Positions 26,003 through 27,694 of a stretch of DNA of 64,000 nucleotides are shown here, piece after piece. Position numbers and translations under genes: made by a program. Where the stretch lies: NCBI RefSeq assembly GCF_003641145.1, contig NZ_CP032744.1, forward strand, positions 2,666,001 through 2,730,000, given 5' to 3'. The stretch's first letter is position 1. Each line of letters begins with the position of its first letter. The notes beneath the pieces were generated by a model that was not told the DNA's origin, did no database searches, and saw only the letters and a list, made by a program, of their open reading frames with translations. The stretch comes from Lactiplantibacillus paraplantarum. GTDB lineage: Bacteria > Bacillota > Bacilli > Lactobacillales > Lactobacillaceae.

Positions 26003-27253
26003 TTATTCCCACTTTACCGTTAAACGCTGTACAAAGACTGACTCCAGTAACCGCGTCTCCAAGATCATATTTTCGTTGCGATTCACAATAGTGCTAAGTT
26101 GACTTAACCCCAAGCCCCGATCCTGTCCCTTGGTTGAATACCCCGCTACTTTTAACTGCCATAAAGGTGGCAATTGGTCAAACACGGTATTTTGGACTAA
26201 GAATACCGTACTTTGCGCCGTCATGAAGACGGCTCCTGTTAATTCACCACTATAATGACCGGCAGTTGCTTCAATTGCATTATCCAAAATAATGCCCAAC
26301 GCAATATCTAAATCCAATTCATTGGTGGTCACACTTTCAAGGACTTGTTTCAAGTCGAAGTGCACGTTGATTCCTTGCGATTGCGCATAACTGAGTTTAC
26401 TGAACAAAATACTCTTAATCGATTTAACCTTAACCCGACTTAAATCTTCGAGCCTATATTGTTCATCACTGACCCGCTTAGTCACTGGGGCAATATTTTG
26501 CTGGTAATATTCCCGTAATCCACTTAAATCATCTGTTTTTAAATATTCACTAATGGAGAGCATCATATTCTGATAATCATGGCGAAAGCGACGCAGTTCG
26601 TTGTAATGCGCTTCGATCTCATTCATATACCGCGTATCATTTTTGATTTGCAGGTTTTGTTGCTGAACCTTATATTTAGCTCGAATCGTAATCCGATATT
26701 CATCGTATATGGCGATTGCAAAGCCGATGACCACCATTAACACAACTAAATTACTAATAACAATTCGTAGTTCATTATCGAGCCCCTCACTGACAATGAT
26801 ATATAAATAAATCACGAGCAACAACACCGCTGTGATGCGGTTCAAAGTTGGTCGGTCAAACGTCGTCTTGATATGCGTGTTCATTAAAATCGCGTTCAAA
26901 ATAATTAGACCGAGCAGTTGTAAACCCGTGAAAATAATGAGGTACGTATTATTTAGCTTAATCGAATACGCCAATAATGAACTGATATGATCAATGACAA
27001 TCGACCAAATTCCCACTTGCAAGCCAATAAAAAATGCTTCACTAAAACTCCGCGTATGCCACCAGGTAAACAGCATGACCATCACTAACAACGGCAACCA
27101 TATATAAGTCCCCATCGTGGTAAAAGCAACGCTGCTAACGAGGCTACAGGCCAAAGCATAGCTGATATCCAAAATAGTGATGGTTCGCCAATCACGTAGC
27201 AGAACCTTAACAAATAAAAACAAGAATAACGTTTGCACAAAAATCATCACCAT
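26003..27253 (-). CDS. lamK: AgrC/LamK-type peptide-sensing histidine kinase (416 aa)
   Basis: About six membrane segments in residues 1-195, then a coiled stretch, the H-box RHDYQNMMLS near residue 226, the N-box LGIILDNAIEA, and the G-box GLGLSQL. GGGG 7 bases upstream supports the ATG at 27253. A 41-codon open frame ends inside its first codons (see 27247-27372). It forms an operon with the LytTR regulator. The ligand is expected to be a cyclic peptide by analogy with Agr/Lam systems; no agrB-like processing gene is nearby. Confidence 0.88.
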   Translation of the reverse strand: MVMIFVQTLFLFLFVKVLLRDWRTITILDISYALACSLVSSVAFTTMGTYIWLPLLVMVMLFTWWHTRSFSEAFFIGLQVGIWSIVIDHISSLLAYSIKLNNTYLIIFTGLQLLGLIILNAILMNTHIKTTFDRPTLNRITAVLLLVIYLYIIVSEGLDNELRIVISNLVVLMVVIGFAIAIYDEYRITIRAKYKVQQQNLQIKNDTRYMNEIEAHYNELRRFRHDYQNMMLSISEYLKTDDLSGLREYYQQNIAPVTKRVSDEQYRLEDLSRVKVKSIKSILFSKLSYAQSQGINVHFDLKQVLESVTTNELDLDIALGIILDNAIEATAGHYSGELTGAVFMTAQSTVFLVQNTVFDQLPPLWQLKVAGYSTKGQDRGLGLSQLSTIVNRNENMILETRLLESVFVQRLTVKWE

Positions 27254-27372
27254 GCGTATCCCCGCAAATTCACACGACTCATCACTGATAACTGAATAAA
27301 GTCGTTGTCATTATTGTGCATCGATCTGACTGGCCCGGTTGCTTCAAATAATTGTTTACCCCATTGCGCCAT
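27247..27372 (-). CDS. Small peptide gene translationally coupled to the LamK-like kinase (41 aa, unrecognised)
   Basis: ATG at 27372 is preceded by AAGGGGG with 7 bases spacing. The frame (beginning MAQWGKQLFEATGPVRS, ending SVMSRVNLRGYAW) stops at TGA 27247-27249, inside the kinase's first codons, so the two would be cotranslated. The N-terminal third is amphipathic, the centre is acidic/Asn-rich (HNNDNDF), and the end is basic and aromatic. It has no Cys and does not look like AgrD or LamD. I cannot assign a family. Possible roles are a signal precursor, a leader peptide controlling kinase translation, or a chance frame. Confidence 0.5.
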   Translation of the reverse strand: MAQWGKQLFEATGPVRSMHNNDNDFIQLSVMSRVNLRGYAW

Positions 27373-27576
27373 CCAAGCGCCCCCTTGCATACTCATTTCA
27401 TTGATATTCCACGTCAAACTTGTGGTTAAAGTTTAAAACAATCCTCTGCACTTGAAAAGAATACATAGTTACACCAATTATTCAACTAGCCTTTAAGACC
27501 CCAAACCATTACTTCAAGACTACTGGTCGTCAGCGACTGACCACGTAACATCCCTAAAAGAGCCTGAGAAAAAACT

Positions 27577-27624
27577 AATTGTGCCCAGTTTCTTAAAAGA
27601 CTTCTCAAGAAACTGGGCACAATT
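27577..27624. terminator. Strong terminator after the TetR gene
   Basis: Perfect 18-bp stem (27577-27594 with 27607-27624, 12-base loop) with T-runs on both sides. The rest of 27373-27694 shows no gene. Confidence 0.88.
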
Positions 27625-27694
27625 TTTCAATTAATATTCTCGAAACGTGCGCCAAAAGATTGCTTGTTCTACTTTCCTTGGCGTGTTAAACATT

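Follow-up and report, generated by a model that had tools for sequence, protein, structure and literature searches.

The window, the whole stretch of 64,000 nucleotides of Lactiplantibacillus paraplantarum DNA that was analysed, carries on its minus strand the two-component operon lamKR, preceded by a short open reading frame of 41 codons that overlaps the start of lamK and is referred to here as the uORF (Table 1). LamK matched the AgrC model over residues 5 to 410 of its 416 residues (E = 1.4e-52) with 179 bits, below the model cut-off of 500, and LamR matched the AgrA model (E = 2.8e-52) with 178 bits, below the model cut-off of 400. A transmembrane sensor with a GHKL kinase and a LytTR regulator together identified the pair as LamKR, which is reportedly the subject of the paper by Fujii et al. 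of 2008.

Table 1. Features of the lamKR locus, in positions of the window
Feature	Position	Strand	Basis or remark
lamR, AgrA-like LytTR response regulator, 245 aa	25261..25998	minus	AgrA model match
lamK, AgrC-like sensor kinase, 416 aa	26003..27253	minus	GHKL ATPase domain, six TM-like windows
uORF, 41 codons, MAQWGKQLFEATGPVRSMHNNDNDFIQLSVMSRVNLRGYAW	27247..27372	minus	ORF call; 42-codon counterpart in G015
GGGG in last uORF codons, candidate Shine-Dalgarno (SD) motif for lamK restart	27260..27263	minus	6 nt 5' of ATG 27253
SD-like AAGGGGG, 7 nt 5' of ATG 27372	27380..27386	minus	sequence; identical in G015
Candidate -35 TTGAAT (27485-27480) and -10 TATTCT (27463-27458)	27458..27485	minus	by eye; absent from promoter scan
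Direct repeat TCTTGAA-N14-TCTTAAA, candidate LytTR-regulator site	27492..27519	minus	only pattern match in G000

The uORF starts at ATG 27372-27370 on the minus strand and stops at TGA 27249-27247. The junction with the kinase, whose frame begins ATG GTG ATG, reads ATGGTGA and is an overlap of 7 nt. An earlier reading of this DNA, made from the sequence alone (the sequence-only reading), had proposed this ATG, an AAGGGGG motif 7 bases 5' of it, 41 codons and a TGA lying inside the first codons of the kinase, and all of these were confirmed from the sequence. The frame stays open for 15 codons 5' of ATG 27372, with TTG 27417 and in-frame ATGs at 27396 and 27390. The start held in common with G015, a genome taken as L. 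plantarum, is ATG 27372; in G015 a more-upstream ATG is followed directly by TAA. In G015, GGGG likewise lies 6 nt 5' of the kinase ATG.

The kinase was searched against 21 genomes of the genus, among them that of the window (G000). Close orthologues of lamK were found in G015 (80%) and G012 (74%), and more distant ones in G007 (48%) and G009 (44 to 45%). Compared with their G015 counterparts, LamK of the window showed 79.8% and LamR 84.9% identity; the values reported between L. paraplantarum and L. plantarum are 79% and 85% (PMC12405376), so the window is probably L. paraplantarum. A second kinase in G015 is a 59% paralogue, placed behind AgrB and an AgrD-like frame. In the agr-like operon of G015 (L064:5449-6160) the AgrD-like peptide, MKEKMYKVLSHLFQYVGTKQLVMCCHGILFETKIPDELKSKD, contains the ring candidate CHGIL, which differs from the ring sequences CVGIW of strain WCFS1 and CTGLF of L. 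paraplantarum CIRM-BIA 1870 (PMC12405376). In G016 lamKR is missing, with 100 bases separating asnB from TetR (L104:5051-5152) and the same neighbours kept; the best kinase match elsewhere in that genome was 30%. A search of a genome contig collection with the kinase query gave 14 pattern matches, none of them a relative, and a kinase alignment gave 16 loci, the closest being 48% identical, with the G015 and G012 orthologues not included.

Short frames were present 5' of the kinase in several of these relatives. In G015 the same AAGGGGG is followed, six bases on, by an ATG opening 42 codons (MVQWAKRFSETKEPVVLISHNQNRCAGKIVVLMMSRLELWGS) that end as TGATG on the kinase ATG. In G012, AAGGGGCGCTGCTGATG opens a frame of 26 codons that are unrelated to the uORF of G000; its SD motif is AAGGGG, and its start was paired with those of G000 and G015 by motif and by eye, as MAFFT did not align it with the others. 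The stop in G012 lies 27 nt 5' of the aligned kinase start. An in-frame ATG is found in the G012 kinase (L063:4701-5981) ten codons 5' of the aligned start, in ATGA overlap with the stop of the short frame; only through this upstream ATG do stop and start overlap in G012, and either of the two kinase starts may be the one used. The frame of G007 has ten codons only, ending ten bases 5' of the kinase ATG in another frame relation, and no such frame was seen 5' of the kinase in G009. The distance from the ATG of the short frame to the aligned kinase ATG was 119 nt in G000, 128 nt in G015 and 107 nt in G012, all of which are 2 modulo 3. Alignment of G000 with G015 required gaps of 9 nt inside the frame and of 14 and 1 nt just upstream. 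In both genomes the short frame ends within the kinase start (an overlap of 7 nt in G000 and of 1 nt, as TGATG, in G015), through different stop codons. At an E value of 0.01, the uORF peptide matched in its own genome only (1 of the 21 genus genomes), and searches of a plasmid collection with the leader DNA and the peptide gave no match. The sequence-only reading had named a frame that is not conserved in related genomes as evidence against a gene, and this applied in part, as the frame is open in the nearest species (G015) and shorter in the next (G012).

The DNA upstream of the uORF was related to that of agr-like operons. A stretch of 105 nt (27415-27519), which includes the direct repeat and the candidate -35 and -10 hexamers of Table 1, aligned at 67% identity with the DNA that precedes lamB in G015 (E = 9e-11). 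The pattern TCTTNAA-N14-TCTTAAA matched 19 times in 14 of the 21 genomes, and four of the 19 matches lie before agr-like kinase operons: one at lamKR of G000, one at each of the two agr-like operons of G015 and one at the G007 gene that resembles lamK. Read backwards, the pattern matched 5 times in these genomes, twice in G000, so it lacks specificity by itself and weight falls on the shared place. The cross-talk reported between the lamKR and lamBDCA systems (PMC4919987, PMC3000848) would be in keeping with a promoter common to both.

Between TetR and the lamKR promoter (27554-27669, minus strand) lies one copy of an intergenic repeat that is dispersed in the genome, measures about 105 nt and contains a terminator-like hairpin. 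At least 30 copies (that of the window and 29 others) were counted in G000 among 36 matches, the other 6 matches being hairpin arms running the opposite way; this count is a lower bound, with 30 of 55 candidates scored. In 12 aligned copies the arms of the hairpin co-varied, as judged by eye, and the three Rfam matches, all at the hairpin (27558-27641), were below gathering scores. Parts of the repeat matched weakly in G005, G006, G007, G011, G014 and G020, with no match in G012, and the two G015 matches to the repeat query were promoter DNA.

The genome was also examined for the remaining parts of an agr-like system. AgrB (PF04647) was matched in 4 of the 21 genus genomes, in 3 cases with a score exceeding the cut-off, and G000 was without a match; LamB of G015 as a query found nothing in G000 at E values up to 10, an empty result of little weight because the search had no positive control. 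No LamC-like kinase was seen in G000, because the next-best kinase match was only 30% identical, and the lamKR operon contains no export gene. Full-length LamK and LamR are kept in G000, with no AgrB or LamC-like kinase of more than 30% identity detectable, and the LamKR of this genome is possibly a receptor pair lacking its own signal. Absence of lamB is common in L. plantarum, as arrays are reported to find the gene in 43% of strains (PMC3000848). These findings agreed with the earlier statement that lamKR is without a peptide gene of its own, and the remark that the short frame has no Cys and no AgrB partner was in line with the lack of Cys in the 41 residues and with the two empty searches.

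The best explanation, to which we give about an even chance of being correct, is that the uORF serves as a leader whose translation is coupled to that of lamK, with the identity of the peptide mostly unimportant. Transcription from a promoter with the LytTR-type direct repeat (about 27458-27519) would produce a lamKR mRNA with roughly 75 to 80 nt 5' of ATG 27372, and the operon may be autoregulated. Ribosomes would be loaded by AAGGGGG, translate the 41 codons and terminate at the TGA that overlaps the beginning of lamK; reinitiation on lamK would be helped by the GGGG located within the final codons of the uORF. Output of LamK would track translation of the uORF, and the peptide would be a by-product. 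Like a coupled leader, the uORF has a stop that overlaps the downstream start in another frame and a ribosome-binding site of its own, identified as a motif only. A leader for ribosome loading was favoured over a hidden signal peptide because the start and the frame persist in the nearest relatives and the amino-acid sequence hardly does. The sequence-only reading had proposed a signal precursor or a regulatory leader; the shared SD and ATG, the stop overlap and the frame relation spoke for the leader, and divergence and the lack of AgrB or an export signal spoke against the precursor. Also counted in favour of coupling were the even spread of differences over codon positions, the low share (0.8%) of shuffled leaders with such a frame and an SD, the 9-nt length of the gap inside the frame and the precedent of cbrX-cbrA. 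Coupling itself faces objections. A GGGG of its own lies six bases 5' of the lamK ATG, so that coupling may not be needed; this motif speaks against strict dependence, as does a leader that is not unusually structured around the start (z = +0.78, +1.16 and +1.31 in G000; +0.33, -0.26 and +1.18 in the relatives). The early end of the G012 frame, the failure of MAFFT to align its start, the ten codons of G007, the lack of a visible frame in G009 and the share of shuffles that reach the same length from a fixed ATG (given below) were also counted against it.

The main rival to coupling, considered rather unlikely, is that an open frame arose by chance in the lamK leader and is either untranslated or translated without consequence. 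Dinucleotide-preserving shuffles (n = 5000) of the 194-nt leader (27447-27254) were scored for a frame of 41 codons or more that began with ATG, was not in the kinase frame and overlapped the kinase start by at most 15 nt. An equivalent frame was present in 4.2% of the shuffled leaders and in 0.8% when an SD-like motif was also required. When the ATG was kept in place, 15% of the sequences in a set of 4000 shuffles reached at least the length of the G000 uORF, so length alone is weak evidence; the corresponding values were 4.7% for G015, 30% for G012 and 40% for G012 with the upstream start, and for this reason none of the three frames is striking singly. Overall, the uORF modestly exceeds the expectation from chance. 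A chance frame would also fit the flat distribution of differences over codon positions, which between G000 and G015 were 17/16/19 in the 40 pairs of codons compared (in one pair the G015 codon is the stop), with 75/36/185 for the kinase and 14/10/78 for TetR in the same comparison. The shorter or absent frames of G012, G007 and G009 and the SD-like motif that lamK has of its own point the same way. Chance would not, however, readily account for an SD and ATG that are identical in G015 despite gaps in the flanking DNA, for a stop overlap kept via different codons or for three distances sharing one frame relation.

A functional small protein or an attenuator leader, which would act in the cell, for example on LamK, or whose translation would sense something, was judged improbable. 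The peptides of G000 and G015 have the same amino acid in 14 of 39 codons, at a DNA identity of 57%. Their common N-terminus, MxQWxK, and a BLOSUM62 sum of 59 in frame, where the two alternative frames give 13 and 17, favour such a role, but 9.55% of column permutations also reached a sum of 59. The dN/dS ratio by NG86 was 0.43, a value as low being found in 12.7% of 2000 column-permuted alignments. This analysis of selection covers a single pair of species and about 40 codons; within it there was no sign of positive selection, and the comparison points at most weakly to constraint on the uORF peptide. Neither Pfam nor NCBIfam gave a match to the peptide, which counts against such a role; the absence from Pfam says little, because one of two true LamD controls was also without a match and the other had chance-level matches only. 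An attenuator is further disfavoured by a leader with no terminator-like site inside it and no unusual structure.

Still less support was obtained for a signal precursor, a peptide that is linear or otherwise processed, secreted and sensed by LamK, and this reading was considered very improbable. The uORF resembles LamD and AgrD in its position directly before an AgrC-like kinase, as agrD precedes the 59% paralogue in G015, and in its length (41 to 42 residues against 42), and the usual ligand would be missing from a genome in which no AgrB was found. Unlike them, the uORF of G000 has no Cys, no adjoining AgrB and no sequence similarity to LamD. Local alignments to two LamD-type peptides of 42 residues, one from G015 and one from G004, were no better than shuffles for the uORF peptide of either G000 (p = 0.34 and 0.68) or G015 (p = 0.31 and 0.80), and the one Cys of the G015 uORF peptide lies, by alignment, outside any LamD-like context. 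No double glycine occurs anywhere in the G000 peptide, and Kyte-Doolittle analysis showed no hydrophobic stretch near its N-terminus (the best 8-residue mean in the first 25 was 0.80). A dN/dS ratio without indication of positive selection, the unrelated codons of G012 and an operon devoid of an export gene also weigh against secretion and sensing. Signal peptides can diverge fast, and poor conservation is thus not fatal to this reading. We regard as highly improbable the reading that LamKR are an agr-like receptor pair without LamB and LamD that uses, or is tuned by, a fast-diverging Cys-less leader peptide, which would then be a species-specific signal or an in-cell ligand of a new kind. Likewise highly improbable is a fossil of lamD (or of a lamB-lamD fusion), left behind if an agr-type operon was duplicated and the lamKR copy then lost lamBD: a lamKR promoter homologous to that of the G015 agr-like operon, the paralogous kinase and a position the same as that of LamD, with nearly its length, would fit, but the peptides of both species were no more alike to LamD than shuffles and DNA similarity to lamB or lamD was absent outside the promoter stretch.

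The 41-codon frame is real and is perhaps translated as a coupled leader. If coupling holds, a ribosome-delivering leader sets the dosage of LamK, and the normal level would be lost in any reporter or complementation construct truncated at the start annotated for lamK. The leader reading weakens one candidate for the own signal of lamKR. What LamK senses in G000, for example LamD-type peptides of other cells, becomes a testable question, which arises because a full-length LamKR lies under a promoter shared with agr-like operons in a genome without detectable AgrB or LamC-like kinase.

The lamKR operon of L. plantarum WCFS1, in which lp_3087 is lamR (PMC4919987, PMC3000848), is the same operon, the kinase and regulator being orthologous by identity and neighbours. 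WCFS1 carries lamBDCA besides lamKR, whereas searches of the genome of the window found no AgrB. A leader ORF is not mentioned in the available portions of PMC4919987 and PMC3000848, and the terms 'small ORF', 'open reading frame', 'upstream' and 'peptide gene' do not occur in the main text of PMC12405376. Among the matches listed for the literature on lamKR and lamBDCA, small proteins and coupling, no title or start of an abstract mentioned the 41-codon frame. Small proteins of L. plantarum DSM 20174 have been reported (PMC7903761) and may include the G015 peptide; a first description of the frame is not claimed.

Termination-reinitiation is described at ATGA and TGATG overlaps (PMC6728339), to which the TGATG of G015 and the ATGA option of G012 are alike; the G000 junction, ATGGTGA, departs from the classic overlap of 1 or 4 nt. 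Short upstream ORFs with ribosome delivery as their only role are covered in a review (PMC12548453). The closest tested case found is cbrX-cbrA of Pseudomonas putida (PMC6591292). As reported there, cbrX resembles the uORF in being an unannotated short ORF with its own ribosome-binding site and an out-of-frame overlap with the start of a sensor kinase, the overlap being 17 nt in cbrX-cbrA and 7 nt in uORF-lamK. The two cases differ in that cbrX is described as strongly conserved, no SD can be recognised for cbrA and its coupling was put to the test, whereas the uORF peptide is poorly conserved, lamK has GGGG and coupling is predicted; CbrA and LamK also belong to unrelated kinase families. Loss of the cbrX start lowered translation of the kinase, and a peptide of the same length and changed sequence supported cbrA translation nearly fully (PMC6591292).
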